DNA from: Tachypleus tridentatus
Taxonomy: Eukaryota; Arthropoda; Merostomata; Xiphosura; Limulidae
Length of the DNA stretch: 64,000 bases
Direction: 5' to 3'
NCBI RefSeq assembly: GCF_004210375.1
Contig: NC_134829.1
Span: 27,792,034 to 27,856,033 of the forward strand
The notes under the pieces are model-generated. The model did no database searches. It saw only the letters and a program-made list of their open reading frames with translations, and was not told the DNA's origin. This document shows, one piece after another, positions 29,190-64,000 of this stretch. How positions within the stretch are numbered: position 1 is the first letter of the stretch; each line of letters begins with the position of its first letter. A program made the translations under genes and the position numbers.

Positions 29190-29201
29190 AATTGCATAAC
29201 G

Positions 29202-31097: not shown

Positions 31098-31108
31098 TCG
31101 ACTTCATT

Positions 31109-37675: not shown

Positions 37676-37750
37676 CTAGGCCCGGCAATTAGGGACGGTT
37701 AGCACAGATAGCCTTTGAGTAGCTTTGTGCGAAATTCAAAAAACAAACAA
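37676..37750 (+). repeat. 75-bp internally deleted SINE-A with target duplication
   Basis: The copy joins the first few bases of the head (GGCCCGGC) straight to the tail (AATTAGGGACGGTTAGCACA). Perfect 10-bp ACACAAGCTC repeats flank it (37,666-37,675 and 37,751-37,760), so the deleted form itself was inserted. It ends 135 bp before the WRNIP1 start codon. Confidence 0.92.
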
Positions 37751-37760
37751 ACACAAGCTC

Positions 37761-37885
37761 TAATAAAACAACGACAAATCCATTTTTAATGTTTTTTTTC
37801 TTTAACATTATTGGTGTGTTAAATTTTACAGTACTCACAATAGGGAGCGCTACAAAATTATAGCGGCTGTATTATATTATTAAGA
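37761..37885 (+). promoter_or_regulatory. WRNIP1 proximal promoter/5' leader
   Basis: Short interval between the mini-SINE and the WRNIP1 ATG. No TATA box at a sensible distance is visible. CpGs are retained (GGGAGCGCTAC, TAGCGGCTG), as expected for an unmethylated start region. The transcription start cannot be placed from sequence alone. Confidence 0.4.
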
Positions 37886-38194
37886 ATGAGCGGCAGTTTA
37901 AATAATCAAGAAACTGTTGATTGTCCAGCTTGTGGTAGAAAAATTAAAAGAAGTGTAATTAATTGGCATTTAGATAACTGTTTAGAACCTCAATCAGAAA
38001 AAGAAATTGAAAACCCGATTAAAAAACAATGTATTGAATATTCTCCAGAAACGAAAAACTCGAGGTTTTCAGGGCTAAATCGGCTGAGATTAGAAACTGA
38101 GGCTGAGACTCGCGAGAGTGAGACTGAAATTGAAAATGGGAAATTGAGATCACGAGCAACAACATCTCACGTTTGGTTAAATCACGCAAACCAA
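37886..38194 (+). CDS. WRNIP1: WRNIP1 coding exon 1 (UBZ zinc finger)
   Basis: Opens at the ATG of MSGSLNNQETVD. Residues 13-32 form a UBZ4 ubiquitin-binding finger: Cys13, Cys16, His28 and Cys32, with the HLDNCL signature. In vertebrate WRNIP1 this finger binds ubiquitin and brings the ATPase to damaged or stalled replication sites. A charged, low-complexity linker follows (KKQ.., ETEAETRESETEIE). The next exon needs phase 0. Two phase-0 donors exist, after codon 95 (CAC|GTTTGG, 38,170) and after codon 103 (CAA|GTACTT, 38,194, used here); neither is strong, so the edge is uncertain and an extra linker exon is possible. The open frame stops at 38,207. CpGs are retained throughout, unlike the rest of the gene. 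Confidence 0.85.
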
Positions 38195-41132
38195 GTACTT
38201 TATTTATAAAATAAAAGTTGTTAACTAGTCAAAACTTAAACGTAAAAGTGTTTTTCGGAACTAAGAAATTCAACCGAAATTAGTGAGCTATTAAACGTTT
38301 AACTCACTTTATAAGTTACTGTAACGAAATAACTAATGATACTTTGTAAGTTTTTTACTATTACTGTTAGTAGTTCTAGTTACACGTTTCTTATTTTTTA
38401 TAAATTCAAAATATTTTATTTATTTGAACAAAAAGCCAATGATTGAGATTTTAGGGTGTTCAGAATTTAAATGATAATGCAATGGTGACTGCAACCTAAC
38501 GTTTGGAAACATTTTTTGTGACTTAGATTTCAGTTGCATTATAAATTGTATAAATATATCTTACGATTTTTCGAATTATCATTTCTGTAATAGTAGGATT
38601 TCGATTTTTTCCAAAATTAAAGAAGACTTACAATGTGTGACCATAGAAACTGGAATATATTTGACAATAATAAACAAGGCTTTTATTTATTTGTGTAAAA
38701 GCTAATTATGTATTGAAAGCCCTGTTGTTTTTCTTGATTGTCAAATAACATTGGAAGTATGATACTGAAGGATAATTGGTTTGAATGCAAGAAAATGGGA
38801 TTGTGATAAATGTCAACCATCTTGATAGGGAACTGTTGCTACTGGAGTAACACACAGGTCTGTATATATAAAAATAATCTTGACAAGCTATACAGTAACG
38901 AGTGTTTAAGTTGACATGAACAGTAACTTACAGTTTGGTACTTCCAACACTGGGAAATAAAAGTGATATTCCTTGCATACATCCAAAAGTTTGGTTAACT
39001 TTTCTCAAATTAAAATGATCAACTGAATAGATAGATGTGTATTTAACTCCAGCCTTTTAGTTATTAACTTGTGAAATGGCTTATTATGTTTGTGCTGGTA
39101 GTGTTTCATTAACTTTAAATTTTGTTTTTGTGGATAATTTTACAAATGTGTGGGGTTGTGTTTAGGTTTGGTTGATTTTTCTATTCAGTGACAAATTCCT
39201 TTTCATGATTTTTGTGGATAAGTACAAAGAGCAGTTTTACATAAACTACATTTTGTGTGAAACATTTAGCTCTAAGAGAATTCAGAGATGTAAATTTGTT
39301 TTCTTTCAAGTATATAGAACAAGAGATGACCAGGTATTTATTATCTTTAGTGTCATGAAGAAATTTTCCTTGAGACACTTATTGAGGTAGTGGAAAGATA
39401 GGGTTGAAGATGAAATCCTGAATATCAGAAGAAGGTTTAAGCTTCAGCTCTGATATCATGCAAAAACGTGTCACATAAGAGTTATTAATTTATGGAATTG
39501 TTTGGCAGTTTATATTGTATGTGCTTGAAACTTCACTGTTAGGTAACCTTGGTAGACTTAAGTGGTTTTATGTCACTTAGTTTTATTTTAGATTTTTAAA
39601 GTCATGTTTGCATTTTACACATAATATAAGTTGGAGAGCTAAAAGTTTTAATCTTCAGGGTTGGTAAGTGGGAGTTTGTATAACTAGGAGCTTTGAAGAA
39701 TATAGTAGTGAAAAGTTGATAAAAGTGAAATGAAAGATGGAAATACTGTGCAAAAAGATCCTCCCTTTAATAGACCACTAATCACAAAAAAACAAATAGA
39801 ATATCATAACCATGTTAAATGTAATTATTCACATCTTTGTGTTTAAGTGACTTTTTACATCATTATATTAACTTGATAACAAGAGAAGTTAAATCAAAGG
39901 GTGTGTAGTTTCCTAAATTCTCCCTAGACTTGTTTTTTTTTACAACAGGGACAATGCTGGTGAGTTTTTCAGCCACTAAAAGTTTTTTTTTTTTTAGTGT
40001 CAAGAAACTTCTGAAAATAAATTGTTAAAGCTCTCATTTATCTTTACTAAAATCTCCAAGATTATATGATCTTTTCTGGGCTATAGGCTTTAATTTAAGA
40101 AATTTCCTAGGTTATCCTGAAAAAAAAAATTGCATTTTTAATAAAAATAGAACTTAGAAAAAATTTAAAGCTGATCAGTTTCTATAGAAAATAGAAGGAT
40201 TTTTGTCTTTGTCTCTACTTCTTAAAACTAGTAAATATTTATTAAGTAATTTTGTTATTTAAATAATAAGATAACTAACTAGATAAGAGAAGTGAATAAC
40301 TCACTGACAGGTGCTAAATTTATTCACTCATTGAATACATCACTGATACACTGAGTCATGTATTTATATTCTCTTATTTCTACATTTTGCCAAATATTTT
40401 TATATTCTATAGAGGCCTTAATAACTATGAAGATTTGAGATATTTCAACATGTACCCTTAAAATGCATCTAAATCAAGGTATTAAAAATACAAATCACAA
40501 CAGTGTAAACTGAACATAATCCATTTTACAAATAAATTTCTTGTTGTTTTAAGCTAAGAATTTTTAATTTACCAGAAATTTAATTTATTTTTATACGAAG
40601 ACTTCAGTTGTAATGTAAAAAATTGATAGGAATTTATCTTTTTTCAACTAATTTGACTGAATCAACACAAAAACTTGAAGTTTTTGAAAGATATTTCCAT
40701 TTAGATTAGTCTTTCATTCTTTCTCTGTCCACATGTATTTGACAGTTTGTAGGAGTTTTTTGTTTTTTTTAAATATATAATACAACCCTTACTTAGTGTA
40801 CAACTAATTTCAATAACAGTATCAAGCTTATTAATGCTGTGATGTCTAGTAGTTTGAGATAAGTGTGTATTGTAAATGTAAGACTTTATTTCTTAATATT
40901 ACATGTACTTTACTACTCAGAAATTTATGAGTATTTTTTAAAAATGAAAACATTGTTCTTCATTTAATCTTTTCTCAACAAAGTTGGCATCTAATGATAA
41001 CATTAAATAGTAAATATAAAAGTTCATTTTAATACATTTGATAACACTGATTTATTAATAAATATTACATTGCTACCATAGCACAAACTTTATAAGAGTT
41101 ATGAAGTGCCCCCAAAAAAGTAGATGGAAATA

Positions 41133-41970
41133 GATGTTAAAAAGTTACACCTGTAATAATGTCTTTATAGTAACACTGGTAAAAAGTTACACCTGTAATA
41201 ATGTCTTTATAGTAACACTGGTAAAAAGTTACACATGTAATAATGTCTTTATAGTAACACTGGTAAAAGTTACACCTGTAATAATGTCTTTATAGTAACA
41301 CTGGTAAAAGTTACACCTGTAATAATGTCTTTATAGTAACACTGGTGTTACACCTGTAAAATGTAGTAACACTGGTAAAAAGTTACACCTGTAATAATGT
41401 CTTTATAGTAACACTGGTAAAAAGTTACACCTGTAATAATGTCTTTATAGTAACACTGGTAAAAAGTTACACCTGTAATAATGTCTTTATAGTAACACTG
41501 GTAAAAAGTTACACCTGTAATAATGTCTTTATAGTAACACTGGTAAAAGTTACACCTGTAATAATGTCTTTATAGTAACACTGGTAAAAGTTACACCTGT
41601 AATAATGTCTTTATAGTAACACTGGTAAAAGTTACACCTGTAATAATGTCTTTATAGTAACACTGGTAAAAAGTTACACCTGTAATAATGTCTTTATAGT
41701 AACACTGGTAAAAAGTTACACCTGTAATAATGTCTTTATAGTAACACTGGTAAAAAGTTACACCTGTAATAATGTCTTTATAGTAACACTGGTAAAAAGT
41801 TACACCTGTAATAATGTCTTTATAGTAACACTGGTAAAATGTTACACCTGTAATAATGTCTTTATAGTAACACTGGTAAAATGTTACATCTGTAATAATG
41901 TCTTTATAGTAACACTGGTAAAATGTTACACCTGTAATAATGTCTTTATAGTAACACTGGTAAAAAGTGC
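41133..41970. repeat. 42-bp minisatellite, about 20 units
   Basis: Unit TAACACTGGTAAAAAGTTAC followed by ACCTGTAATAATGTCTTTATAG, with 41-bp variants lacking one A and late units carrying ATGTTAC. One truncated unit lies at about 41,341-41,370. GTTAC and GTAAC bracket most of the unit, giving it dyad symmetry. Because 42 is a multiple of three, a 131-codon minus-strand frame (41,591-41,986) repeats the 14-residue FYQCYYKDIITGVT; it is a by-product, not a gene. Confidence 0.97.
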
Positions 41971-43676
41971 ACCCAAGTTTAAACAAATTTTAATGTACCT
42001 CTGTGAAAATCATAAACATAATATTTTGTTGTTGTTTTTTAAACAAAGAAGTGGTGTCATTTTCTCTCACTTTCCAGTATAACTAATGCCATTTTTATTA
42101 GGTTTTCTCCTGAATCTAGAATAAAAAAGAAGTTAAAGCAAATAATCTATTAGAACTTTAGAGACCAGAAATTTCATGTTCAGTTATAGACTGAAAATAT
42201 CTTAAAATCTCTTGTAATAAAGTACCAATACATGTTTCAAAAATTTCTGCATGCTGTTTTAAAACTTGAAAACAACCTGTATCTATAACAAATACCCATA
42301 TTGTTCTTCTTTTTAGTAAACTGTGTAATTTTAAAGCCAAAATCTCAGACACTTTGAAACTGTCAACCTCTCTTTCCCAAATCAAATTTTAGTTGTTTAT
42401 GAGCTCTTATATTTAACTTCAACAATATTCTTATTTTTAAATAACACACTTTTCCTATTCATGAATTATTTTGTCATAGTACATATATTACAGCTGCTTT
42501 CAAATATCTTATCTGTATTAGTAAAACAATGTTTTTTTAAATATAAGAATTTGTGAACATATACAGACAAAGCACAGTAAACAAGACCATATTGAAAGTA
42601 ACTTATTGTGTTGTTCAATAAGAAGAGTTTCTTTGATGAAAAGTGTTTATTATATTACAAGTTCAATGTTTGTGTGTATATTTACATGACACACACATAC
42701 ATCTTTATGTTTGTTTCTATTTTATATTATTTATTTTGTAAGTTTATATTGTTATCAATTCAGAATTATCTGTGGATTTCCTTAATTATAGTTCAAGGTT
42801 ACACTATATACTTTTAAGTTATAGTTATGATAAATATGTTTATTATTAAATAACCAAACTTTCAGTAAATGTATAAATGTGTTGCATGTTTGTCATCAGT
42901 GGTTTTATTATTTCTTATCTGTTTTTGATTTTTGTTAGATGAATCCAGTGCATCAGACATTATTGGATATTAATTATCACTCCTATTTTTTTGAGTGTCC
43001 TGATATTCCCAGCCAGTTCTTAAACCACCAGGTCTTTCTTTATTCTCAAGAATCATCTATCTGAAAACAAGTTTCCATTCCTTCTTATTTTTCATTATAA
43101 GAATGGTGAAACACCATGATAAGTTGCATAATTTTTCATCCTTTCTCTTGTAGTACAAATTTGAAATTTCATTTGGTACACTGAATGTTTATTATTAATG
43201 ATTCAATTACACTTTTTTAGTTGTAAACCTCTGCTGAGACATTTTACTTAATACCATGGGTCATCAATTGTGCTGAATCTCAGTATAACATTTGAATTTG
43301 AAGAGACCATGCATTTTCTCGGGGTGTTTTTGCACACCGTCTCAAACACTTGTAAAGTTTGTCACCTCTACTGTTGCATTGTCTGTTTATCATACCTTAC
43401 GCTTGTGTCCTCACATCCTATTACTTTCAGAAGAGTACAAAGAAATTGGAAGTCCTTAGCCTATCATTTTTCAAGATAATCCTATATATTTTTAGTCTTT
43501 TACTCATCTTTTATCAATAGAAAATAAACCCAGATATCTCAACCTAATCATTCCATCCCTGGAATTAACCTAGCAGCCCTCTCTGAGTTTTATACAGTAA
43601 GTAAGTATGCTTTTGCAAAGAAGAAGACCAAAAACTATACATAATATTTCAAGTGGGACCTAACTAGTTACTTTTG

Positions 43677-44253
43677 CAGAGATGCCAACCATTACAATTT
43701 GAGTGTAATCATTACAATTTTGGTGTATACTTTATGACTATACGCTCATACAGACAAATATTACAACTTGTTGCAACTCCCAAATTATTATATACTATAT
43801 AGGCCTATATAATAAAGTGATAAATTGATCCTCCAGAGCTTGAAAGGGGTGAGAAGAAAATTTCTAGTGAGGTACAAATAAATTTTGATAATAAATAAAA
43901 GACATAGTACAAATGGCTACTTGCAATAATCATGTTTATGCTTGAAATAATAAAAAATATTTGTATCTCCGATGTCCACCACTAGTTTGAGTGTGGTGCT
44001 TCTCCATATTGGGTACGAGGGGGAATCCATAGTTATGTCATCAGTGCTTGTCAGCCAATCAGCGCTTGCGCAGATGGGTATTTCTCGTTTTCTAAGCGGC
44101 ATAGAAACACCAATGCGATCGTTCACAAGATGGAAAAAAGAGGTCTCGTTCACCAGATTGTCTTGTTTCTGGCAAATCTAAAAAGACTAAAACTGTGAAA
44201 GGGCTCTGTCTACAATCATTACGCTCAGTCATTTGAAATAGTTGGCATCTCTG
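43677..44253. mobile_element. non-autonomous DNA transposon (MITE-like)
   Basis: Ends CAGAGATGCCAAC and GTTGGCATCTCTG are perfect 13-bp inverted repeats, flanked by CTTTTG on both sides (43,671-43,676 and 44,254-44,259). The repeats continue imperfectly inward (ATTACAATTTGAGTGTAATC versus its reverse near 44,215). The interior (43,970-44,130) is richer in G+C and CpG than the surrounding intron. No transposase. The CAG start suggests hAT, but a 6-bp duplication does not fit well. Confidence 0.75.
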
Positions 44254-46685
44254 CTTTTGTATGGAGATAATGCCTGTAAATACACTCTATATTTTTCTAT
44301 TAGTTTTATTATTCGTAGACATGGAGTACTACTTCTGTACTTTGAGTGACTTATACATCACTACAACATGGTGTTTTATTTTAGTCAGGCTATAGAGTTT
44401 CTGTATTTACTAAACACATGGCCCAAATTATGAAAACCAGAATGCAATATCTTGCACATACTACAATTAAATATCATTTAACAAATCATTGACCAAGTTG
44501 ATCCAAATCATTCTGTGGAACCTCAACATTCTCAATACAGCTATAGCTAGAAATGACTGTCAGTATTATTAATTTAAATAAGAAAGACCCAAGAAGTGAC
44601 ACCTGATATTTCACAAATAACAAGGATTCACTTTGATTGGACTGAATTAATAACTATTCTGCTTCTCTTATCCTGCCACCCAACAGTTTAAATAATTAGT
44701 TTTCCCTAACCCTTACCAGTTTAATTGTCATAACTAATCTTTTATATTGCACCTTACCAAAAGGTTTTGTAAAATCTAAGTAAACAAAACTCGTACCATC
44801 TGTAAATAACAAGTAATATGCTAAAAAAGAGAGAGAGATATATAACTGTAAGACAAGGTTTCCTATGGTGAATTTATTTGACTTTCATTTGTGATATTTC
44901 AGTAAATGGTTTTGAGCTTTTTTATCAGATTTTTCCCACTAGAGAAGTAAAATTAATTGATCCATGATTTACAAACAAACTCTAATTAACCAGTTCAAAA
45001 ATTAGAGTAACATTAGCAGCAACTTTCAAACTTTCAGGTACAAGTCCATTCTACTGATCTATTAAAAATAGAAGAAAGATTTGCATATTTAACCTTTGAT
45101 CTCCTTTGAAATTGTAAGGAAAATTTTTTTCTGACTCTGGTGCTCCATTATTAGTCTTTTTACCAATTGAAGTACTTAGAAATTGTAGTTGTGAGAAAGA
45201 TAAAAACAAACAAAAATGTAGCTTTGCTGCTAATGATTTCACTTCTTTCGTATCAAAGTTGAGTCTGAATTCTCTTGTTCTACTGATGATTGAGGTTGGG
45301 TTGATGTATTGTTTCATCAAGATGATACTGTGATGAGATGTTTTCTGTTTCATACAATTGATTCAGATTTTATACCTTCCCCTCTTCTGTACGTCTTCAT
45401 ATAACTTTACAGTAATCTCAAAGTCCATAATTATATATTAACCATTTCATACAAATTTTACAAAATAAAGCTCTCACACACACATGCAAGACAGACCTAA
45501 GGTCATGTATGTAATGTTTCAAGGGTAATAAGTTTTGTTTTTGTAAAATGCATGATTTTTCTACCATTATTCTTAGAGGAACACCACTTTATTTAAAGAG
45601 CATGTTAACAAAGCTTTAAGAAAGAAGTAGTTTAGCCTTTTTGTCATCCTTCTTCTGCTAAATAATTATAAATTGATGAAATAATTTAACATGGGAAGTA
45701 TGTTTCTTATCCATTTTTTTTCTCAGCTTATTTGATCAAGATCTTGTGTTTTCATGGTCAATCAAATGTTTATAAACCTGAGAAAATCTGCTCTAATGAC
45801 ATGAGGTTACAAGATAATTTACAGTGACTAACTTGTGGATACCAGTTACCTCTGATCAAAGTAATCTGTTAACTAAAAACTTAAAAATAATATGTCAATT
45901 GATATACTAGTTTAATTAGGATTTTTTTTTTTTGACAAAAAAAAGAAACAAACAAACTTGTAATTATTAGATTGTTACAAATAATTTGTTTGGTACTGTT
46001 ATTGTTAACTGTATTTATGGCTGTAACCCTAAAATCTCATGGTTTATTTCAATTCATTCTATACTTAGCTTACAATGGAAATAATACTCGAAAATATAAA
46101 TAATAATAAGTGAAGTAAATAAACAAATACACATTTTAATGAATCTATTCATAAAACTAACTACTAAATTAAAAGTGGAATATCTGAAGCAGCAGTAGTG
46201 ACTGTGCCAAGTAAGAAGAGTGGAATAACTGTTATGACTGTATTATTCACAAGGTCAAGCTTTGGGCCAAATCTTGGGTATTATCACAGCTTTTCCAAAT
46301 GTTCAGCTGTTACTTATGTTCATATAATGTTAGAAACAGTAGCTTTATATTTGTTTTTGATTGAAAGAAATAAAAAAAGCAGCAAAGTTGTTGCTATTCT
46401 TCATGGTAAAGTAGCAAAACAAAGTAGGATTAGCACAAAGCAAAATTACACTGGTAGACATTAATTCAAAATAGGGTTAGATAAGTACTACACATACATT
46501 GGTTGAATATATGAATATTTTGATTGAAACTAATGTTTTAAGGCCATAGGAGGACACAGAAAATTTGAAATGTAAATGTTGGAATGATGTAGTAGTTGAA
46601 GATGCTTCAATGTATTAAATAACTCATTCTGACAGTGGGGATTCAAATTTAATATGAGTGGAATCTTGTTATTAATCAATTTTAA

Positions 46686-47890
46686 CAGTGTTTCCCTGGG
46701 TCAGTTATCAAGGGGTTGAGCTATATGGTAGAACTTAATATATAATATAATTCAAGAATGAACTAAAACTATTTTTATCATTTTCAGGTTGAACTAAAAT
46801 TATGCTCAAAGTTTTACAACAAAATTTTGAGATGTAGTGATGCTGTTGTAAGTTTTTGACTCCCACAGTGTTCAGTATTAATCGTAAAAGATGTACATGT
46901 GGTGTTGACTTACCTGTTCTGCTTATTGGCTAAGATCAATTATAGTATGTTGTGTTCTTGTTCTTTGTTTGCAGAGTAGATATGATGGCCTTGAGTGTCA
47001 GTGTGATAATTCTCACCTTGACCAGTGATACTCTACTGCTTTTAGTGTAGCTTCTTATGGTTATGCTGGACAGATCATACTGTAGGTTCTAGCTGAAACC
47101 CAGACTTCAACTGTCAAAACTGTCATCTAGCTATTTCAAAAGCTGGTTCTTCAGTCTTTTGTCTCTCTTTCACTTCTTTGAATGTGATCAACTAACATAG
47201 ACAGTGCAAGTGTAACTTTTCTCTGAATATACTTTTCTGGAAGAGCTTGTTGCACATTAGTAGATGAGAATAGTTTTGTATCATCAAAGTTCATAAAAAT
47301 GTTTTCATTCACATTCATAAAGTCACCTGGATATGCTGGGTATAACATGATGCATATAATTCTTAATACAGTCATGTAGAATGCAAGCAATTGATTATTC
47401 TTGTTAATGGCACTGAAACTTGGTGCCTTCCATCAGGCTTCTTCATTTGGAAAGTTTGATGTTGCTGCAGGTACAATACCAAATAACTGCTGAATTCAAC
47501 AGACATCATTTCCACATCCTGCTGGAGTACTAAAACAACATTTTGAACACCTTGTTTTCACACTTGAGCTCTTGGATAATCTGTGTCATTTCTTCTGTGT
47601 CACAAAATCTGAGGATTCAGAAGTATTGCTAGATATTTCATATTCATCATTCTCCAATGAAATAACATAATCACTTCTTCCTTTTTTTTTTTACCTTTGG
47701 TTTGCTTTGCAGCTGTTTCCAATTTGGTTTTGTGCCATTTGGACTGGGTCTAAACCATGGCATCCTCGCTACCATTGAGGGCATTTCCCACAAGTACCGC
47801 ACATATGCACTTACAAGCCATTTTCTTTTTTTTCCCGTATTAACGTTGCTTTATCAATACAAGATCAGTACGCTCATTCACTGGATGTTA
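46686..47890 (-). mobile_element. fragment of unnamed DNA-transposon-like family (copy 3)
   Basis: The longest copy. The left edge CAGTGTTTCCCTGGGTCAG is the terminal repeat. The minus strand has a 79-codon open frame (47,390-47,151) with FDDTKLFSSTNVQQALPEKY and a lysine/arginine-rich end, matching the broken trace in copy 2. Further upstream in sense, 47,670-47,890 matches copy 1. Domains are not recognisable to me. Its 5' end is missing. Confidence 0.55.
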
Positions 47891-49217
47891 TTATCTGAAT
47901 AGATAAATGGATCTGAAAATGTAATACCACCATACAAAAAAAGCCAAGTTTGAACAAAAGAATTAGTCATATAAAGAGGTGATATGAAAAGAAAAGAGCC
48001 AAGTTATATAAAATGGAAAAACTTTCTAAAGATGTAATATAGAAGTGGGAAAGTTAGGAGAAATTGGGGAAACTTGGACTCTTTATATTCAATAAATATT
48101 CTGTACATTTTTCTTAACTCACCTGCTTTTAAATTACAAAATCACAGAGTATGTACTTATGTAATTTGATTTTCTATTACATCTTCATTTAGTTGACTTA
48201 TTTGTTCAGTGTTGTATGTAAAGTGTTTTGATCAGGTAACTTATAAGAAAAGCTTGTTGTATACTTTGTGTGTATTCACCGATTCCTTCTAGTCATTACA
48301 AAGCTCAATCCACATCTAATGCCAAGTAATCATGATAATTTCTTGGAATGTTTTCATGAAATTAGATTTAATTCAGCATTATTTGACACATAAATATAAA
48401 TTTTTATTTTATTATACAGAAAATGGTATAGATTATTAGTGTTGTCAAACAGTGGACATAAACATCTATTTGTGGGTCTTTAAAATTGTCACACCCTTAA
48501 AAAGTCATGAAAAGGAAGAGAAATGTTGTGCTTTGCTAAATATATGAACCTTAATGTGGTTAGTGTCTGTGGGGGTTTCTTCTTACTGGATATATTTGAA
48601 ACCTATGTAGAGTTCAACTAGCCATTAATTTTGAAATTATCTTAGTATCTTATATTTAAGATTCTCCATTCATCAGTGTATTTTGTTATCTAACATATGT
48701 AAGTGCTAAGGAATTTTATGTTTGTGTAGTAATATTGTCTGTTACAATTGGTGTTTAAGTATTTTTGGGAAAGGAAGTTTATGGCTGTCTGTTTGATGGA
48801 GAAATTTTTAAAACTGTTTTTCTGTTTTAATGTTTATATTCTAAGAGCAAAATGTTAAAGGAGTGGCATTAAAATTTGTTACTTGAAGAGATGAAAAAAA
48901 ATCTTACTTAATTTGTCCATCTACTTCCCATCACTGCTCATGGAACAGAGTGAAAATTAGAAAAATGAAAAACTGTGTTGTTTTTTATATCTTGTCATTT
49001 TTAGAATCATAAAACTTGTTAATATTGTTCCATCTAGAGAATGGTAATGGACAGTTGCTGCATGAACCTTTGCCAATAACTTTAAGTAATAAGGACATTT
49101 TGGTTGTTTTCACATTTGAGAAACATTGTTAGTAAAGGTAAGCCTGATGGTTTAAGATTAAGTAATATATGTTATTAATTCATATATTATAGGAATAAAA
49201 CTTCTTTTGTTACACAG

Positions 49218-49412
49218 GATTTGAAATCCATTGAATCAGTGAAAAACAGCACACCAAAATTTGCTCCTTTAGCAGATGTTGTGAGACCGTCTTATCTTGA
49301 AGAATATGAAGGTCAAGAAATGGTTTTAAGTGAAGGAAGTATACTGAGGACTCTCATTGAAGTGAATAACATACCTTCTATGATATTATGGGGACCTCCA
49401 GGCTGTGGAAAG
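49218..49412 (+). CDS. WRNIP1: WRNIP1 coding exon 2 (start of AAA+ domain)
   Basis: 65 codons, phase 0 at both ends, after acceptor TTTGTTACACAG. It encodes DLKSIESVKN, then PLADVVRPSYLEEYEGQE, the conserved entry to RarA/MgsA-type AAA+ ATPases (pairs with the human PLADTMRP region from memory). It ends in ILWGPPGCGK, the first part of the Walker A P-loop. The catalytic Lys is the last codon; the following Thr comes from the next exon. The donor AAG|GTTTGG has an unusual T at +3, but the reading frame and P-loop fix this border. Confidence 0.96.
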
Positions 49413-50559: not shown

Positions 50560-50891
50560 GTAAGTTGTTGATTGTTTGTTTATAAAGATAGTTAGCAGTG
50601 ATAGATTAAATGTCTGGGTAAGCATTATTGTCAGTTTACATTATTTGAAACACATTGTATTATCTAAAGATTCATAAAGTATTAACAGGTATTGCTCTGT
50701 GGTACTGTTTTGTTGTTTTTTTTGCCTACATTAAGAATTTCAATTAATAATTGCAGTACCACATAAAATATAAATTCAACTATGAAGCTAAAATAGCTTA
50801 ACATCGTACTTATTTCCTGGCTGTTTGAATTTCTGCTAAACTGATATTTCTCAAAGGTAGAACAAAAAGCATCAACATTTTCACAGACACT

Positions 50892-52419: not shown

Positions 52420-52460
52420 ATTGGTTATTCACGTCATATACTGTAGTAGGAGTATAAAAA
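52420..52460 (+). promoter_or_regulatory. promoter-like module inside intron 3
   Basis: An inverted CCAAT box (ATTGG, 52,420-52,424), a half CRE ACGTCA (52,431-52,436, one of the few CpGs here) and a TATA box TATAAAAA (52,453-52,460) are spaced as in a polymerase II core promoter. No downstream coding exon was identified, so it may be chance or part of an old element. Confidence 0.25.
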
Positions 52461-53532
52461 GGACTTTCAAAAAATGGAAAGAGATGAATGGGGCAACAGT
52501 TTTTATTCAGTGCATAAAACACATCACAGCAAAGTAAAAAGATATGTGGTTCTTATTTGATATTCTAGCTTGTCAGCATTAGTAATTTTAATTCCTAATT
52601 TGTATGAAACTACAGACTTAGTATTTTGACATCATGAACATTTAATTTTAAAGGTGCTGCATTCAACACACCATGTGACTCACTAAAATCTATATTTAGA
52701 TGTGTTCTTTTAATATTTACTTTTAAATGAAGAAATTAACTCATATATAATATTAAAGTTTGAATTATAATCTACAGTTTGATTTCAGATTTATTAACAT
52801 AAATTTGTTAAATAGTAGTTCAATAAAATTTTGAATGCAAGTTAACAAATGCAATGATATAACCTTTGACCTGTGACTCATAGTGAAAGGGTTAATGAGT
52901 GATCTCATTAATTATTTATATTTTATTAATCAATCAATACAGCATTCCTAAAACTATGGTATGTACAAGTAAAACGTTGGTAGCAGATGCTGCCACACAG
53001 TTGCCTTCCCTCTGGTCAGCTGTTCAAAATTGGCAAAAACTAGTGGCAGGTGGACTTAGTTGCTCTGTCATAAAAAAGACAGAGTGATTTCCAGATGGAT
53101 GTCAAAAAGTAAAGCAATTGTATGAAAAGACCATCACTTGGATGTACATGTCAGATATGCAGGATATTTTAATTTAGGCATTAATTAAATGTATCAAATT
53201 TATATTTGCCAACAAGACTGACATACACTATTTTCTTTTGTAACACAAATATATTTTAATATACATACAACAATACAATTTATAATAATGTTTATTGTAA
53301 ATAATGGTTTATATAAAAGAGTTTTTCAATCTTACAAATTATACTGAGTCCTCTGTGTGGTTTAGAACTGAATATTTTATCGATAATTCATGTTCTCAAT
53401 GAGCAAATTAATTCTGAGTTGATACTGCTATGCCTCGCTTAAGATAGCTAGCTTGGCTGGCTTCACACTGTTTACAAGCTAATGTCTTACCAACAAAGAT
53501 ATTTGATGACCTTCTAGAAATACTAACTTCCA

Positions 53533-53759
53533 ACAGGTTCGAATCCCCATCACACCAAACATGCTCGCCCTTTTAGCTGTGGGGGTGTTATAATATGATG
53601 GTCAATCCCACTATTCATTAGTAAAAGAGTAGCTCAAGAGTTAGCAGTGGGTGATGATGACTAGCTAGCTGCCTTCCTTCTAGTCTTACACTGTTAAATT
53701 AGGGATAGCTAGTGTAAATACCCCTTAAGTAGCTTTGTGCAAAATTCAAAACAAACCAA
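53533..53759 (+). repeat. SINE-A copy in WRNIP1 intron 3, 5'-truncated
   Basis: Lacks the first ~45 bp of the head. It is flanked by perfect 11-bp ACTAACTTCCA duplications (53,522-53,532 and 53,760-53,770). Nearly every CpG of the intergenic copies is TG or CA here (GATGGTCAATCCCACTATTC instead of GACGG..., ATTCATTAG instead of ATTCGTTGG). Confidence 0.95.
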
Positions 53760-55228
53760 ACTAACTTCCAAAATTAATTTGCCAAAACTGAATAGTTTGT
53801 AATGTTCAAAATCTATTAACATTTCCAGTCAAATTCTATAGTTTTCCAATTAGTAAGCATCAATTGCAGTTATAGCTTTTGAGACTTAAAGCATATTGAT
53901 TGTGGCTGACCAACAATATTATTTCTATGATTTGGCACATCATTTTATATACTCAGGTGAGATTCTTGAATGTTCAAGAGTATATGAAAACATACTAGTA
54001 CTTTTGCATAACATATATTATTGATTCTTGCTCTCAAGAATCTTCTACAGATTTAGATAACAGGTAGAACTTGTGCAATACACATACAACAATATACATC
54101 ATGTGCATCAAAATGAAACAAATGCAGATATTAATATAAATATATAACAGTAAATTTATTACAGCTTTGATAATTCAAAGTGTTTTGTTAACCATTTTCT
54201 ATTCTGATAGTGTACATGTAAGTTGGCATCTTGTTTCTCTGTTTAAGTGATTCAAAATATTTTAGTTAATAATTTTCAGTAGCCTAATCTGGTTGCAAAA
54301 ATGTACTTTTGCATCTTATGTGTTTCTTTGAGTTTTCAAGTTGTCACATTAACTTCTATAAACATATGAAACATTTTGTTTTCTAGTTTATTATGCATAT
54401 TTGAATATTGTAGGTTATTTTAAGTATAGGAGATCTTTTTATTACAATCAATACGTGTATACGTAGTTCTGAGTTGTAAAAAGAGAAAATATATATTATG
54501 GTTTTTAAATTGTATTATTGTTGCTGTTATTTCATTTCAAAAATTTAAACATTTCTCAATTTAGGATTACATCACTAGTTGTCTAACTAAAATTACATTT
54601 ATATATTTGTACTTTTTACCACATTTTTTCATATTATTTTTAGTGCAAGTTCTTGTACAAGGAATGAAATAATAACTTCAAACTGAAGTTAATTGTTCAG
54701 CAAAAACAAAAGTAACAACAACAAATATTCAGAAACACTTAGCTCATTAAATTTTATTATAATAACTGTCTCCATGATAGTGATAATTCATAATTAAAGT
54801 GTTTACAAAACCTGAATAAGATTTAAGATTACATATTCATTGTTGAAAGATTTAATTAAATGGTGTAAATATTTTACTTCTAGAAATGGCTTTCTATCTC
54901 TAGAACTGAAATGTAGGTTTGTTTTCCATTTTAATATTAAATCTGTGTCTCTTTTACAAGAAGAATAGTAATATTCCCTCAATATGCGATCTTTTTTAGT
55001 GATCTTTAAACAATACATACATATATTTCTGTTTTATATATTGTATTCTGATGTGTGTTTTTGTAATCTCTTCATAGTTTATGTAGTACTTGTACAAGAG
55101 TCATGAGTACATATTACATTCTCTTGCCATTAACAACTTAAAGAATATACAAATAAAAAAGAAAATTTTAATATTGGGAGTTTTGTTTGAGAATCAAGTG
55201 GCTTTGATTTTTGTTGTAATAATTGCAG

Positions 55229-55461
55229 GATTCTTTACTTCCTCATGTGGAAAATGGAACGATCATTCTGATAGGAGCAACAACTGAAAACCCTTCATTT
55301 GTTCTGAACTCAGCTCTGTTATCTAGATGTCGAGTTATTGTCCTTCAGAAACTTTCTGAAGATAACATAATGCGTATTTTAGCTAGAGCATTGAAACATC
55401 TTAACATAGAAGTTTTGGATAAAGAGAAAGAAAATGCCACTGATTTCAGTAGCTCTTCTGG
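55229..55461 (+). CDS. WRNIP1: WRNIP1 coding exon 4 (sensor 1, arginine finger)
   Basis: 77 codons plus two bases (phase 0 in, 2 out), acceptor ATAATTGCAG. It begins [12 protein letters not shown], continuing LQQ from exon 3 as in the family. [10 protein letters not shown] contains the sensor-1 Asn, and ALLSRCRV holds the arginine finger that reaches the neighbouring subunit's [23 protein letters not shown] starts the helical lid. The end is set at GG|GTTTGC because only this donor has the phase required by exon 5 (giving SSSG then STLYIENKAL). This is a second donor with T at +3. Confidence 0.95.
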
Positions 55462-55557
55462 GTTTGCAAATTTTCATATTCTTCTTACCAAACTAAATTC
55501 TTAAAAAGTATTTTAGTAACAATGAAAAAATTTGTCTAAATGGCTTTTTTTGTATTA

Positions 55558-56838
55558 TCAGGTCATCACTTAAGTAATGTCTAATTTTAGATTCAGAAAA
55601 AGAGAAAGGATTTCAAATGCTTTTAATGTTATTTAATCAATAATGTATGTTTCATTGTTATTGATTATTTCCTGCCAACTTCTGAATGCCACTTCTATAA
55701 ACTTCGTGGGATTTGGAGGAAGAGAATGTAGAAAGGGTAGTTTTAACATCTTCATGTGTTCCAAGCTCTTTTCCATCAAGAAAATTCTGCAACCTTCAGA
55801 ATAGATGATGAGCAGATGGGACAAGGTCTGAAGAATAAGGAGGATGTAGAAGGTTTTCCCACTCTTGCTCTTCACTTTTGCAGATTTGATCCTTGCTGTA
55901 TGGGGCTGTGCATTATCCTAGTGTAATATAATACAACACCTTTATGATTGAGCAAAGCAAGCATCTTTCCTTTCAGTGCAACATTTAAGTGCTCTAACTG
56001 TTGACAATAGAAGTCTAATGTAATCGTTACGTTGAGTAGCAGCAACTCAAAGTGGATCACACCAACAATATCCCACCAAATGCTTGACAAGACTTTCCTA
56101 AGATGGAGGTCCATTTTGGGCTGTGCTTTAGCCAGTTGACCTGCAATGAGCCATTGTCTGCAGCACTTAACATTTTTATAAAATATCCATTTTTCATCTC
56201 CAGTCACTAACCTGTTCATGAAAGGTGAGTTACGTTTACAAGAGTGCAGAGAAATGCAAATGTCCACTCTTGCTTTAAGGTTGACTTCTGTCAAATCATG
56301 GGGGACCAATTTTCCAAATTTTGACATCTTTCCAAGCTGTTGCAGATGACAGTAAACTGTTGAATGGTTGAATTTAGCTTCTGTGCTAGTTTTTCAACTG
56401 TTACAGTACAATCTTCATCAATATGCAGCAGGCAGCAAGACATCATTAAATTCAACAGGATGACCTGAATGTGGTGCCTTACTTAAGCTGTAGTCACCTG
56501 ATCTGAACTTCTGAAACCACCCTTGACATTTTCTTTCATTGAGAGACTCCACACCATAAACACCTTGAATGTTTCATGTTGTTTCTGCTGCACTATTGCC
56601 CTTTTTAAACTTATAAAGCAGCATATGCCTAATGTGCTCATCAGATACATCCATCTTCATAAGGGTTTATTTGATTAATGATCTGAAAAAGTGGACTTGA
56701 GTTAGTTTCCTTTATTTATCTAAACATTTTTATACATGTCCCATGACACATTTTAGTCATTAAAGCCTTCTATAAAGACAGAAATGATGAAGCACTTTCT
56801 GTATTAAATTTTCAGACAGTACTTATGGGATGACCTGA
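55558..56838 (-). mobile_element. mariner transposon, inactive
   Basis: 1,281 bp between TA dinucleotides (55,556-55,557 and 56,839-56,840), with inverted ends TCAGGTCATCACTTAAGTAA and, reversed from the right, TCAGGTCATCCCATAAGTAC (about 27 bp). It carries one broken mariner transposase in antisense to WRNIP1. Confidence 0.93.
55633..56660 (-). pseudogene. mariner transposase, frameshifted
   Basis: The start reads MKMDVSDEHIRHMLLYKF (from 56,660). The helix-turn-helix region follows in pieces with a stop. The middle frame (56,327-55,872) has HDLTEVNLKARVDICISLHS, RLVTGDEKWIFYKN with the first catalytic Asp, and LLNVTITLDFYCQQLEHLN. At the second Asp block the frame breaks: DNAQPHTA lies in another frame behind a TAG. 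The third site reads PPYSSDLVPSAHH, where mariners have PSD, so the last Asp appears lost. The C-terminus ends FRSWQEIINNNETYI. Inactive. Confidence 0.92.
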
Positions 56839-59016
56839 TATATAGAATTTACTGTGAGTTTTTGAAAACATTTTGACTTGAACATTTTTGCAGCATGATA
56901 AAATTAGGAAAAAAAACAACTTTTTGTTGCATTAAATAATGAATTCATAAAACTCACTTCTACAATACTGTAGTATAAATTCATTTATTATTCATTTTAG
57001 GTGCATGTAAAGATATTAAAAATAAATGTGACTATTGACATTTTTCTGCTTAGTAAGGGTTTTTTGATTGCTTAAAATCTATTTCTTGTGAAGCATAATT
57101 TTCCTTTCCAACTGTTTTATTATACTATATACTAATGGTCACAAATATTTGCTGAATCTTTGTCCTACATATGATTACATTTAGGTGAATAAAAGTATCT
57201 GGTGGTTTTTAAGGTAAAATGATTTTAAAATCCTTTAATTTATTGAGAACTTCTTTATGTTTGTCCTTTGATGAAGACAAGAATAAGTTTGTTTACGATA
57301 CAAGGTTTCAGTGAATTATTTCATTTCAGTGACTTAAACTGCTTAGCTTTGCATTTGCACATGAACACATATCAGTTCATTTGGTGTACCACACTAATTT
57401 TGATACTTACGGTTTAGTGGGACAAAAATGCACTTGATGCTTCCTTTCAACTACATACATCATTTTTCAGTCACAATGTCAGATGTTCACTAATGATGGT
57501 GAGAGGATTTGAAAAAGTTGATTGCTTATCACTTTATAGGCTTTTGCAGTTTTCTTTAATACATGAGGATACATCAGTATTATTTTTTGGATAGCTCCAA
57601 AGGTTACAAATAATAAAGTAAATACTAAAATACAATATCTTGTAGTAATGAGCTCATACAAACATGATCTTAGTTTCAGTTTTGTTCTTAATGCTTTATT
57701 CTCATATTCAGTTTGATAAAATATAGGTTTTATATAATAACGTTTCATTGTATTAGTTTTTGATGATTTCAGTCCTTGATGTTTACTTTCATTAGATGAG
57801 AGAAAATTTAAACATGCAAAACTGTCATTACTGAAGTAATTATTCTTTGAAATCTCAAAATAAACAAACTGCCACTAATCAGATCTCTGAAATATTGTCT
57901 TTTAAATAATGTAATTATACAGAACATACTGTAATATATAAACAATAAAAGAATATATGAGATTTATAAGAATTTGTTGTGTCAAGGCAAAAATCAACAT
58001 TTTATAAAATAATGTCAGTCATATCCCTAAATGTTAATAACCATATTTAATCATTGATTTGGTAAAATACTTACACCTAGGAACTGAATTAAAATATTTG
58101 ATGTTTGACAGAAATTTTAAGTAATACATTTGAGCATATTTAATTTCACCTAGGAAAATGTAGAGTGTAAAAATAATCTATGAAAGCTGAAAAAAAATAT
58201 GAATTTTTGTAGTTTTAACATAAAACAATTTGATGATCATGTAGTGTTAATATTGCAATGCTTGAATAACAGTAATTTGTTTTATGTGGCCAGTAACCTT
58301 TTCTCCTAATTTTTTTTAAAAATAATAAAACAATGGTAGATTTATATTTGAACATGTTTTTTTCAGTTTGTCATACTGCTGTTCTAACTAACTAACTAAT
58401 CCACTGGATATAAAATACTGTAAATCTATACCTTCGTGTAATTGTTTTATTCAGGTATGACAATATGCTCTTAAATCTTAACATCATGTATTACAGCTTT
58501 TTTTGGGGATGGGAGATGTAACAGAATTACATTTTGAGACATAAAGATGTAGTGACACACCATTTGTGTGGTTCTACATTTTTCTGAATAAGTGAAAAAG
58601 TTGCAACTGAGGAGAGTCAGACTATCTATTACTGGAGATGTTCTAATCAGTTAAATTATGTGTCTTACTTGATGGTGGAAACTGTAGACTTTAGTTTATT
58701 TATTAAGACAAACTTAGCAGGAATCAGCTATTTCATTCAGCTTTCATTAATTAATGTATTTCCAGTTCTGATGGAATGTGTATTACACTAATTAGAACTT
58801 TCATAATTTAATATATTATATCACTATATCAATAAAACATTAATGAAGTTTTACAAATATATTCATTTCATATTTTGAGCTGGTCAGTTTGCCAAAAATC
58901 TACACTTTAATTTATCCTTTTATTGGTTGTTACTTTATTTTCTTACTGGTTGGTGTTTTTATTGTTTAAGAAAAATATTATTCAAATGTAACCATTTCTG
59001 TAATTTGTTTTTTCAG

Positions 59017-59228
59017 ATCTACACTCTATATAGAAAATAAAGCCCTGGAAATGTTAGCAGCTGTATGTGATGGTGATGCACGTACAGCATTGAACAGCCT
59101 TCAAATGACTGTAGAATCTGCATCTTCTAACTGTTTTGAAACGAATAAATGTGATTGCCCCCATGTGATTAAAGTTGAGCATATAAAAGAAGGCTTACAA
59201 AGATCACATTTACTTTATGATCGTAAAG
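59017..59228 (+). CDS. WRNIP1: WRNIP1 coding exon 5 (lid domain)
   Basis: 212 bp, entering in phase 2 and leaving in phase 1 at AAAG|GTAAAG. It encodes STLYIENKALEMLAAVCDGD, then ARTALNSLQM, the lid helix with the conserved DGDAR sensor-2 Arg, an insert with CDCPHV, and IKEGLQRSHLLYDRKG, which leads into the C-terminal oligomerisation domain. Human WRNIP1 has the same order (GDARAGLN, EGLQRSHILYDR, from memory). Confidence 0.96.
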
Positions 59229-61276
59229 GTAAAGACTTATTTAAAAATTATTTTAAAAAGTAGATTTTTGAGGTAAAAAATTTCTTTGTTTATCTTTCTT
59301 TTCTTTTCATCATTTGTTTGAATCTCTTATAGTGATTTCAAATGTAATGGTTAACTTTGTCATCATCTTCATTTGGTTATGATATTTTGAACTTTCGATG
59401 TTGTGTTTGGAAATAATTACAGCATTCTTTGTCTTCTAATGCAATGGTTAATTTCATTTTTAAGAAAATAGTTTGGACGTAAAAAGATTTCAAGGAAGGA
59501 AATAATTTCTTCTTAAACTATAGATTTTCAATGTTTTTCAACATTTTAAATATTTAAATGTATTTTGAGTAGTTCTAGATAGGTAGAGAACAAGAGTTTG
59601 ATTTTCATTCCACATGTAAAAATTCTCATGTTGAAAAGAACTTAGGGCATGCCCACATGTTGAGTGATGCATATATTCAAAATTCATTTTTAGTTGTAAC
59701 ATTCTAGAATTTATGATATTTTAAACCTTTTTATCAATTAAAAGTTAGAACATCCTTCAACAACTAGAAATAAATATGGGAATAACCAGGAGATAGTTAC
59801 TATTTTGAAGAGGGAACTGTGCAAAATTGTTGACAAATAGCTAGTTTTGTTTTTGTGTGGTACACATAAATAAACTGTAAAAACACCTTAGACATTATGC
59901 AGAATCACTTCAGAAAATTGATTTTAAGGTAAGAGCTACTCATTTATTTGAGAAGCTGCAATAAAAGAAATTGGAAAACTGTTGTATATTTTGTGACATA
60001 CTCCATGTGGATTAATGCAGTTAGTTTTTCCAGGATTCTTCAGCAAGTACAAGGCTGACAATACAGGTTATTCTGGTTTTCAGGACACAAAGGAGCTCCG
60101 TGTCAGGAAAAAATTTGAATTTAATTACAAGTCCACTGAAATCACCACAGATGTTAATCAGTCATACAAATGAAATAAATGTCAAAGTGGTTCATAAAAT
60201 ACAAAATAACTAGTTACCAAATTCTACACATTGAGAGCTACTATTCAAACATATTGATGTCAACGATTAATAATTTTAACAAATATTTATGAACATTTTT
60301 ACATAGTTTAAAGATGTTTAGTCAAACACAAATACTAAGAATAGTATGTGTGAAAGGAACTTAATGTATTTTTTATTATCCATTTTTAATAAACAGCATT
60401 TTTTTAAAGGATTTAGATGCATCAGACAAATAATTTAGAAAGATATCAAAACAACTGAATTTGTTCTTTATGTGAACTCACTTCTTGGAACTACATGTCT
60501 TTACAGTAAGGACCATGTGCAACAGTCTCTTCAAGTATTTTTATTGTAAAGATATGGGAATCACTAGGCTATAACGTGCTCATAACTCATTACCTTGTAA
60601 ATGAACCATTGTAACATCTTTTGTTTTTGTTGTTTTGCAATAAAATATTTTATATAATTGATATTTAAGTCACAAAATATTTCATAAGACCAAAACATAG
60701 CAGATAATACCTTATTCCAGAATAGTTAATACAGAACATTAAGTATAATGGAGATAAAAACTAATTGTTAGCTCTCCCTCTTTCTCGAAAGTCAGTGTCA
60801 GGTTGAATGATGTTGATGTGGGATCTCAAATTAAGGGTTAACTTAAGTCTATAAAGAAAACATTAACTTAAAGATTTGCTATTAGGAATTAAAATAAATT
60901 AATAGCTCAAACCTTGATTTCTAGGATAAAAAAAATTCACTGGATCCATGTTGTTGGGTGGGGTTGTAGAATTTTGAGTTCGGACAAATAAATGTTAATT
61001 GAGGCTGTTATTTGGGATGAAGTTGGAGTGGTATAATGGAATTAACTGTGTTAGTCAAATGACTTTCCACAGTGCAACCAAGGCAGGCTAGAAATTAGAT
61101 ATAGTATTTCACTCTTTAGATGCAAAAAGGAAAATTGGAAACTAACAGAAATCAACCAGAAAATTAAACTGATTATTTGATATCTTTATTTTGTTAGGAG
61201 GTCAAACAACTGATTATCAGCTACACTAATGAGTCCATTTAGTGTTTGTTAGATTTTTCATTTCTGTCTTTTCCAG
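59229..61276 (+). other. WRNIP1: WRNIP1 intron 5
   Basis: 2.0 kb, CpG-poor, AT-rich. No repeat family or exon was identified. Confidence 0.7.
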
Positions 61277-61432
61277 GTGATCAGCATTATGACACGATAT
61301 CAGCGTACATCAAGTCAATGCGAGGTTCTGATGAAAATGCTTCTCTCTATTGGCTAGCTCGAATGTTAGAAGGAGGAGAAGATCCTCGATTTATTGCTCG
61401 AAGGTTGATTATTTTTGCTAGTGAAGATGTAG
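61277..61432 (+). CDS. WRNIP1: WRNIP1 coding exon 6 (start of C-terminal domain)
   Basis: 156 bp after acceptor TCTTTTCCAG, phase 1 at both ends. It reads (G)[20 protein letters not shown], then [20 protein letters not shown] and [12 protein letters not shown]. This is the RarA/MgsA C-terminal helical region that forms the tetramer. The donor is taken as GTAG|GTTAGT, inside the Gly codon; GAT|GTAGGT is a less likely alternative. The next exon should start with the LADP-like motif; none is present before 64,000. Confidence 0.96.
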
Positions 61433-61804
61433 GTTAGTAAGTTTATTTTGATGAAACTATGAATTATTCAACAAAACTGAAATAATTTAAAATCACCACA
61501 ATAGAGAAGAACATTAACCAAGAAAAATAATATTTTATAAATGACATTTGAGTCTTGAACTATGAATTCAAAATCATCCTGAGGCCACCAGTTAGGTATT
61601 AGTTTATTGTACCAAATATCTGGAATATTAAGACTTTAAACAATGTCATTATAATTGTTTATTATGTACTAGTGATTTACCAGTTTTATTAACAGTTTTT
61701 AGATATTTTGTAACATTAAAAAACAAGGATATATAAAAATACCCTCCATTATATATGAGATGCTATCTTATTTGTGATGATGAGAAACCCACTTGAAAAA
61801 AAAA

Positions 61805-61934
61805 TGTATCTCAGGATAGTTGGTATGAGTATTAACACTTTTACTAATAAAGCAGAGATGACCTGAGAAAGTCAAAATTATCTCTGCTTTATTAGTAAAA
61901 GTGTAAATACCCATATCAGCCGTCCCGAGATACA
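61805..61934. mobile_element. 130-bp foldback MITE
   Basis: Two arms of about 54 bp, TGTATCTCAGGATAGTTGGT... and its inverse ending CCGTCCCGAGATACA, are separated by about 20 bp. The inner parts (ACACTTTTACTAATAAAGCA and GAGAT) are identical in both arms. No target duplication longer than AT could be established. Confidence 0.85.
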
Positions 61935-63523
61935 TACATACTTCCTTAGTTATTATCTTTTTTTTTAAAACTTTATTAAATATTAGATTCAGTAAGACAT
62001 TTTGAATACACACATACATTATGAAGCTTTTCATTCTTTTGTGGCTTATAGAAAAATATACTACTATAACATTATACAAGGTGTTTACTGCCTTTTCCAC
62101 ACAAAAATCAACACTTGATTCACTTAGGTTGAAAACAGATTAAGCTTCTTAAATGTTTTAAACATTAAATCTATTTTAGTAACCTTGAGTTTCATGGCTA
62201 TTTTTTAATTAAATGAGATATGTAATAAATTTACTGTTATACATTTATTTTAGTGCCTACATTTTTTTCAGTACAGTTTACTTTTTATGCATGTTACGTA
62301 TATTGTTGGATGTGTATTGCCCAAGTCCTGCTTGTTCTCTAAATTTGTAGAAGATTCTCAAGAATAAAAATCAACATGATTGGTATATGAAACAGATGTG
62401 CTGAGAGATTATTATTATTACTATTAGTCAGCTACTGTTGGTGTGTTATCGGCCTCAGAAGCTATAATTGTTATTAACACCTATTAATTGGAAAACTACA
62501 GAATTTGACTAGAAATGTTTATTGATTTGAACATTACAAATTATTCAACTATAGTGAATTACTTTGGATCTTGTTATTTTGAGAGGACATTAAATATCAC
62601 CCTTAGTAAGATGTGAGCTTCTAACCAGTGTGAGGCTAGCCAAGAAAAGACATTGGTAGCTTAGGTGAAGTGTGACAATATCAACTCAGAATTTGCTCAT
62701 TATGGACCTGAACCATTGATAAAAATATTCATTTCTGGACCAGATGTAAGACTCAGTATTGTCTTTGTAAATGTCTTGTATATAATCCATCATTTGTAAT
62801 AACTATTAGTAATAACTGTTATCATAAGTTGTGTTGGTTTTTGTTTGTGTATCAGTCTTGTTAGCAAATATCATAAATTTTATACATATTAACAATTAAT
62901 TAAGTACTAAATTGAAATTAAAATTTCTGGTTATTTGAAATAGTAATACGTAACACACATAAAATAATAAATTGGAGGCCTGTCCAAAATACATTTTAAT
63001 ATGTAACAGATATTGGTTAAATTGGAAGATTAGCTACCTTCTACAAAACTAACAACAAAATATAAAGTAAATGTTAACCAACCATTCACTGTTTTGTAAA
63101 TTTGTTTTGAAAAGATCAGTTTTTCAGATTATCATCATTCTTTCCTTCCTCTTTTCAGTGTTAGTGAATGTTTTGATAATCTTGGTGTTTTTGTCACATG
63201 CCATATTGCTTGTAATGCTTAACTATGACCAGTGGGCTTTCCAAGATGGAAAATTTCTTGAATGATATGGTAGCTTTTCAAAAATATATATTTAATCTTT
63301 TGTTTTGTCATTAATTGTTAATGTAAAAAATAATTTGTAACTTTAGTTGCATTTTGATGTTTTGTTTTGATCATAAAATATTTTAAGTATCTGAAATTAT
63401 GTCAAATAATAAGTTCTGTCAGCTATTAATATACATTATAATGTCTTTGTGGTAAATAGGTAAGGGTTATTATCAAATTGAGCAATTAAACTATAAGCAA
63501 ATATTTACATGTATTAGAATGCA

Positions 63524-63757
63524 GGGCCTTGTGACTAGGATGCCTGATTCACAATCTCTAAGTTGTGAGTTCAAAATCCATCACTGAACAAGCTCACCTT
63601 TTCAGCTGTGGAGGCATTACAATAATAAATTCTACTTTCTTCTAAAAGAGAGCCTAAGAGTTGGCAGTGGGTGATGTTGACTAGGTACCTTTCTTGCTGT
63701 CTACCACTTCTAAATTAAGGACAGCCAATTCAGATAGTAGCATTGTGCAAAATTCCT
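63524..63757 (+). repeat. SINE-A copy in WRNIP1 intron 6, old
   Basis: GGGCCTTGTGACTAGGATGC to CATTGTGCAAAATTCC, strongly diverged. CpG sites of the family are lost. Confidence 0.75.
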
Positions 63758-64000
63758 TTATCAAATCATCAAAATTGTTAGGTTTTGAATATGGGCTAAA
63801 ACTCTCCTACAGTATGTGTCTGTAACTTATTGGCAATAAATGTTAAAAATAAATGGGCAGCACACATTCCACATGTTTTAAAATAATATACTGGAAACAA
63901 GCCAAAGGTATGCCCAAAAATTTGTTTCACTTTTGGTTACAAAGTTGTGTCTAAAGCTTTAAATAATTATATTTTCTTGTCAAAAGTCCCCACAGGCGAG

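Follow-up and report, generated by a model that had tools for sequence, protein, structure and literature searches.

In the spider Stegodyphus, passages of PMC6409797 put the methylated share of CpG sites at about one third in genes and 5% between genes, with introns methylated about like exons and transposable elements (TEs) that lie in genes sharing the methylation of the gene. For Ciona, passages of PMC3827831 describe intronic repeat copies as passively methylated. Around the TSS of a transgene placed there in a methylated intron, methylation was absent from an area reaching about 800 bp upstream and 1 kb downstream, and the edges of methylation domains were not tied to the first methionine (same passages of PMC3827831). 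In the excerpted text of an arthropod survey (PMC7343188), exon methylation is reported in most species, Limulus being one of 12 names that a table passage lists, and exons exceed introns in methylation in most species, with Parhyale as an exception. In a cnidarian, according to sections of PMC13345969, H3K79me2/3 and H3K36me3 accompany remethylation, and loss of methylation leads to spurious starts from intragenic TEs. The general gene-body pattern is thus already well described; judged by title, no paper on WRNIP1 methylation in invertebrates was found. We report here how an abrupt change in CpG content within a predicted WRNIP1 gene compares with these systems.

Position of the CpG edge and the gene that contains it

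CpG dinucleotides were tallied in 1-kb bins across the entire window, that is, the whole 64-kb stretch of DNA analysed, to which a two-state HMM segmentation was also applied. The observed/expected ratio (o/e) of CpG was 0.13 over 4-2,127 (low state), 0.79 over 2,146-38,612, 0.07 over 38,627-43,941 (low state), 0.75 over 43,967-44,230 (high state) and 0.14 over 44,246-63,997 (low state). A change-point fit, which models the chance of a C having G next, gave 38,611 as the best single change point; its 2-log-likelihood support spans 38,580-38,749, and the gain in log-likelihood was 211.7. When 1-kb blocks were permuted, none of 2000 permutations reached this gain, the maximum being 75.7. The edge lies inside intron 1 of WRNIP1, 725 bp past the ATG (37,886) and 417 bp beyond the end of exon 1 in the gene model. 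In the 726 bp before it, a stretch that begins at the ATG, 20 CpG were counted, versus 1 in the 726 bp after it. Given the domain edges described in the Ciona passages (PMC3827831), the distance of 725 bp from the ATG is to be taken as descriptive. The CpG-depleted gene body (38627..64000, plus strand), as delimited by change point, segmentation and gene model, starts in intron 1 and spans five further modelled exons and their introns to the end of the window. A gene-body footprint shows as loss of CpG along the transcribed part of a gene, beginning some way past its start, and the depletion seen here has this form.

An earlier note on this DNA had described CpG as frequent before about 38.6 kb and nearly absent after it, with an edge some 0.7 kb inside WRNIP1 that spares exon 1. 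The edge and the sparing of exon 1 are borne out by the above figures, and near-absence beyond the edge is correct except for the CpG-rich segment 43,967-44,230. Its count of two CpG in 39,001-41,100 was reproduced. For its comparison segment, 27,061-28,290, about 38 CpG had been claimed and 36 were counted; this segment is CpG-rich, but it is atypical even of the flank (o/e 1.23 vs 0.79). The start given to the depleted feature, 37,700, has to be moved, as it sits in CpG-rich DNA and the depleted block begins near 38,611. Depletion is also not confined to WRNIP1, since the block at 4-2,127 is low as well.

The gene model consists of six plus strand exons that join into 433 residues, with AG preceding exons 2-6 and GT following exons 1-6. 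Over residues 114-433 the model aligns with 3pvs_A (Replication-associated recombination protein A, E 8.4e-69), which we take to be the E. coli protein. Searched against Pfam, the model gave AAA, AAA_assoc_2 and the beginning of MgsA_C, of which it holds the first 36 of 167 positions. The coding part of exon 1 (37886..38194), spared with its 10 CpG, encodes a putative UBZ-like finger: residues 10-41 match the RAD18 fragment 5vf0_B (E 5.5e-5), and Pfam returned for this exon Sgf11, below the family cut-off. Exon 2 (49218..49412, 1 CpG), with a Walker A motif at its end, exon 3 (50365..50559, 1 CpG), with a Walker B motif, both seen by eye, and exon 4 (55229..55461, 3 CpG), whose donor was picked by phase, are backed by the RarA alignment, exon 3 by Pfam as well. 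Exon 5 (59017..59228, 3 CpG) carries AAA_assoc_2 according to Pfam, and exon 6 (61277..61432) the start of MgsA_C. We infer the junction of exon 1 with exon 2: the donor, CAA followed by GTACTT, is weak and was picked by phase. Another exon 1 donor, GTGAG at 38,118, was rejected by hand, its phase being incompatible with exon 2. WRNIP1, which is a housekeeping gene, has a UBZ finger ahead of a RarA core. With its RarA-like AAA+ core and the putative UBZ-like finger in front, the predicted gene is of the WRNIP1/RarA type. No continuation of MgsA_C was seen by eye in the plus strand frames of 61,400-64,000, so the gene probably runs on past the window, its 3′ edge lying out of view.

CpG decay in repeats, dinucleotides and codons

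Copies of a same SINE family lie on both sides of the edge; those aligned comprise 15 from the flank, some of them pieces, and 2 from the gene body. On a trimmed alignment, a consensus was made from the flank copies, and each of these was compared with the consensus of the others. The body copy in intron 3 (53534..53759, minus strand, analysed over 53,536-53,756) is truncated, tRNA-derived by eye, and sits between 12-bp direct repeats. It differs from the consensus at 17 of 191 non-CpG positions (0.089), has kept 2 of 13 CpG, and reads TG, CA or TA at the 11 other sites. Age-matched flank copies (n=7, at least 15 sites each, divergence 0.059-0.109) have kept 98 of 127 CpG (Fisher p 1.7e-5 vs the intronic copy). 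Older flank copies (n=5, divergence 0.128-0.178) have kept 42 of 84. Three flank pieces with 3 sites each (8 of 9 kept) were excluded from these sums. Expressed per unit of non-CpG divergence, CpG decay was 24.5 for the intronic copy and 4.75 for 11 flank copies pooled, a difference of about 5 fold, with single flank copies ranging from 1.2 to 6.2. The 15 flank SINEs have lost 72 CpG sites, 60 of them to TG, CA or TA, which indicates that the flank was exposed to CpG decay weakly, not never. The second body copy, past exon 6 (63643..63756, minus strand, analysed over 63,500-63,756), has kept 0 of 15 ancestral CpG; its divergence is 0.283, so it is not age-matched with the flank copies, and the decisive comparison hangs on the one copy of intron 3. 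The family presumably resembles SINEs of horseshoe crab or other chelicerate DNA. An exact 32-base core of the SINE was absent from IMG/VR and from prokaryote contigs, neither of which would be expected to contain a eukaryotic host.

An interspersed repeat of unassigned family is present once on each side of the edge (33141-33971 and 46763-47575, 77% alike). At 15 CpG of its flank copy, the body copy has kept 1 and shows TG or CA at 9 and other letters at 5. Over five non-overlapping alignments between inside and outside, CpG outside correspond inside to 20 TG/CA, 8 other and 4 kept, and in the reverse direction CpG inside correspond outside to 2 TG/CA and 2 other. A mariner transposase fragment in intron 4 (55872..56393, minus strand; PF01359 1.5e-19, with SETMAR and Mos1 chains) yielded nothing usable as a further test of decay. 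Tandem repeats were also seen in the introns. Intron 1 contains about 20 copies of a 42-bp unit (41138-41968, 96% matches, 0 CpG), parts of which are crossed by ORFs on both strands, and intron 3 a perfect 35-bp tandem repeat of 3.8 copies (50892-51023).

The o/e of TpG/CpA was 1.30 in the body versus about 1.15 in the flank (Mann-Whitney p 5.5e-7), and over 64 bins it was negatively correlated with CpG o/e (Spearman −0.78). The control pair GpT/ApC did not differ between body and flank (p 0.60; Spearman with CpG o/e 0.02), and the remaining dinucleotide classes printed shifted by 0.09 at most across the edge. The TpG/CpA excess that the earlier note had proposed to look for in place of CpG is therefore present, though the raw gain of TpG+CpA, about 5 per kb, is smaller than the CpG loss of about 21 per kb, which speaks against deamination as the source. 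Also against it, G+C drops from 0.352 to 0.294 across the edge, beyond what CpG loss alone explains. Further TpG turnover and a differing base composition of the introns could be the source of both the shortfall and the G+C gap.

Loss was greatest at unconstrained sites. CpG o/e was 0.11 in introns (inverted-repeat element described below excluded), 0.43 in exons 2-6 and 1.03 in exon 1. Synonymous-codon shuffles (5000) were run on the joined exons, a junction CpG being a third-position C followed by a first-position G. Exons 2-6 have 0 CpG at this junction of codon positions 3 and 1, versus a mean of 9.8 in the shuffles, none of the 5000 giving 0, and exon 1 has 4, versus a shuffle mean of 2.5. 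The 14 CpG remaining in exons 2-6 are all within codons, 9 of them as Arg CGN, and this is the pattern predicted by mutation pressure plus coding constraint. Two observations go the other way. Exon 6 retains 6 of the 14 CpG, an o/e of 1.0, none of them at codon junctions; and introns are more depleted here than exons, when exons are the more methylated in most arthropods of the surveyed passages (PMC7343188). Coding constraint may be the reason for the deeper depletion of introns. Loss of CpG is thus regional and context-specific, comes with a gain of TpG/CpA, has a 5′ edge, and is present in an age-matched repeat and at synonymous sites.

The flank, the left block and a CpG-rich patch in intron 1

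The CpG-rich flank (2146..38612) comprises the WRNIP1 upstream region and exon 1, and its composition suggests that it was little methylated in the germ line. With recognised TEs masked, and bins with fewer than 500 bases left dropped, o/e was still 0.74 and the lowest of 31 bins stood at 0.33, none being below 0.25; young SINEs thus do not explain the CpG content of the flank. Values vary along it, 1-kb bins at 16-17 and 36-37 kb going down to 0.30-0.31, and the second of these counts against a uniformly spared flank close to the gene, as it adjoins it directly upstream. Several ORFs were recorded in the flank. A C-type lectin ORF (10,849-11,391, minus strand, PF00059 1e-9) sits in CpG-rich DNA; this would agree with the contrast known to exist between constitutive genes and regulated ones. 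Others are reverse transcriptase ORFs at 4327-5341 (PF00078), CpG-rich Tc1/Tc3-type transposase ORFs at 13995-15075 (PF01498, PF13358), and two minus-strand ORFs at 32074-32993, Penelope-like by eye with a GIY-YIG-like stretch, for which Pfam gave 0 matches at 0.01.

The second CpG-depleted block (4..2127) has a TpG/CpA o/e of 1.37 and an abrupt right edge. It is as depleted as the WRNIP1 body and has no gene assigned to it, a point against a reading based on genes. Four of its five ORFs of at least 60 aa were tried against Pfam and none scored above cut-off, the best match being IL3Ra_N (E 0.00083, 19.7 of 26.1 bits, sub-cut-off). T-A skew is −0.028 in this block vs +0.035 in the WRNIP1 body, a reversal of sign that may point to a gene on the minus strand extending beyond the left end.

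A single segment of the gene body was called CpG-rich. This patch of 264 bp (43,967-44,230) interrupts an otherwise uniform depletion and in this respect also goes against the gene-body reading. It belongs to the right half of an element of 577 bp (43677..44253), which has terminal inverted repeats (CAGAGATGCCAAC...) and is flanked by the 6-bp direct repeat CTTTTG; the outer bases of the two arms are identical at 19 of 21 positions. The left half of the element has 1 CpG (o/e 0.17) and a TpG o/e of 1.46, the right half 10 CpG (o/e 0.72) and a CpA o/e of 1.43. The patch could be either a younger CpG-rich insert or a protected promoter, and the two cannot be told apart because a second copy of the element was not found in the window. 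Of the 35 CCAAT boxes counted on either strand across the whole body, the right half contains three, and it also has the only TGCGCA of the body, which we take to be an NRF1 half-site. Annelid regulators whose motifs mark unmethylated promoters include YY1 and NRF, as given in passages of PMC11292947, so that the promoter reading merits a test. It is nevertheless unlikely that the patch would be a transposon-borne, methylation-free promoter keeping an unmethylated hole open, perhaps as an alternative or antisense start of WRNIP1. A coding exon was also considered for the patch and rejected, the four ORFs across it matching no Pfam family above cut-off. Rfam gave no match at gathering scores across the window, and in a loose search of 43,200-44,600 the sole match was SCARNA7 at 43,446-43,555, sub-threshold.

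Origin of the edge and comparison with known systems

Taken together, the TpG/CpA excess, the age-matched SINE and the synonymous-codon test support the interpretation put forward in the earlier note: the edge is very probably a trace left by mutation where an animal WRNIP1 gene has long been methylated at CpG sites of its body in the germ line. We infer 5-methylcytosine as the cause; at the level of chromatin, events would have run as follows. WRNIP1 would be transcribed in germ cells. H3K4me3 excludes methyltransferase, and promoter chromatin bearing this mark over the first several hundred bases past the start would keep the de novo enzyme away. The transcribed body would bear H3K36me3 and H3K79 methylation, which accompany methyltransferase recruitment. 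Methylated C would then deaminate to T, turning CpG into TpG or CpA over time in introns, at synonymous sites and in TEs inserted into the gene body. CpG would persist in the promoter, in exon 1 and across the 36-kb flank because these were little methylated.

A genome methylated nearly everywhere could produce the same picture, if the 36-kb flank were an exception, unmethylated or rich in young transposons, and the edge simply the end of that domain. The likewise depleted block at 4-2,127 would then be in its place, as would a flank full of SINEs and other TEs, and the CpG comparison covers the 64-kb window. We nonetheless find this improbable: without its recognised TEs the flank remains at 0.74, with 0 of 31 bins below 0.25, its older SINEs (0.128-0.178) retain half of their CpG (42 of 84), and an edge 725 bp into the gene is about where the onset of gene-body methylation is expected.

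A difference in base composition without methylation, with AT-rich introns or an isochore-like shift, would account for the fall in G+C from 0.352 to 0.294 and for the correlation of CpG o/e with G+C (0.67 over 64 bins). The o/e ratio corrects for G+C, yet it is 0.79 for CpG before the edge and 0.14 after it, and 1.14 and 1.30, respectively, for TpG/CpA, with other classes shifting by 0.09 or less; the body SINE has TG, CA or TA at 11 of 13 CpG sites for a non-CpG divergence matching that of flank copies, and exons 2-6 are without codon-junction CpG, all of which makes such a difference very unlikely as the explanation. Finally, a change as abrupt as this one, within about 170 bp, might betray unrelated contigs joined at about 38.6 kb during assembly. 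The edge runs between exon 1, with its UBZ-like finger, and the RarA AAA+ exons, which are all on one strand and in one frame in the model, and the same SINE family occurs on both sides of the edge, so that an artefact of this kind is hardly credible.

Our results indicate that a single raw sequence can hold good internal evidence of past germline methylation. Codon junctions, and an intragenic repeat copy set beside similarly diverged ones from the flank, argue against base composition as a simple explanation. With the edge placed to about 170 bp, the reach of the protected 5′ zone can be estimated for a single gene. The WRNIP1 edge is a clean example of a pattern already known from the spider and Ciona, not a new one. 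As in S. dumicola, the signal extends over the exons and introns of the gene (PMC6409797). Features compared in that species, in the passages of PMC6409797, are intragenic TEs that are methylated where intergenic ones are hypomethylated, and genes that fall into classes of low and high CpG o/e; the o/e of 0.11 in WRNIP1 introns is below the mean of the low class, 0.35, which is over genes and not introns. Unlike S. dumicola, the signal here is known from the sequence footprint alone. The mosaic domains of Ciona described in PMC3827831 likewise cover the gene with methylation and leave its 5′ area unmethylated; there, in another phylum, this was measured directly, whereas here it would be read from the letters of the DNA. 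With the promoter CpG islands of vertebrates the locus shares a CpG-rich promoter beside a CpG-poor body; it differs from them in the length of its CpG-rich side, a flank of 36 kb where theirs is a short island.
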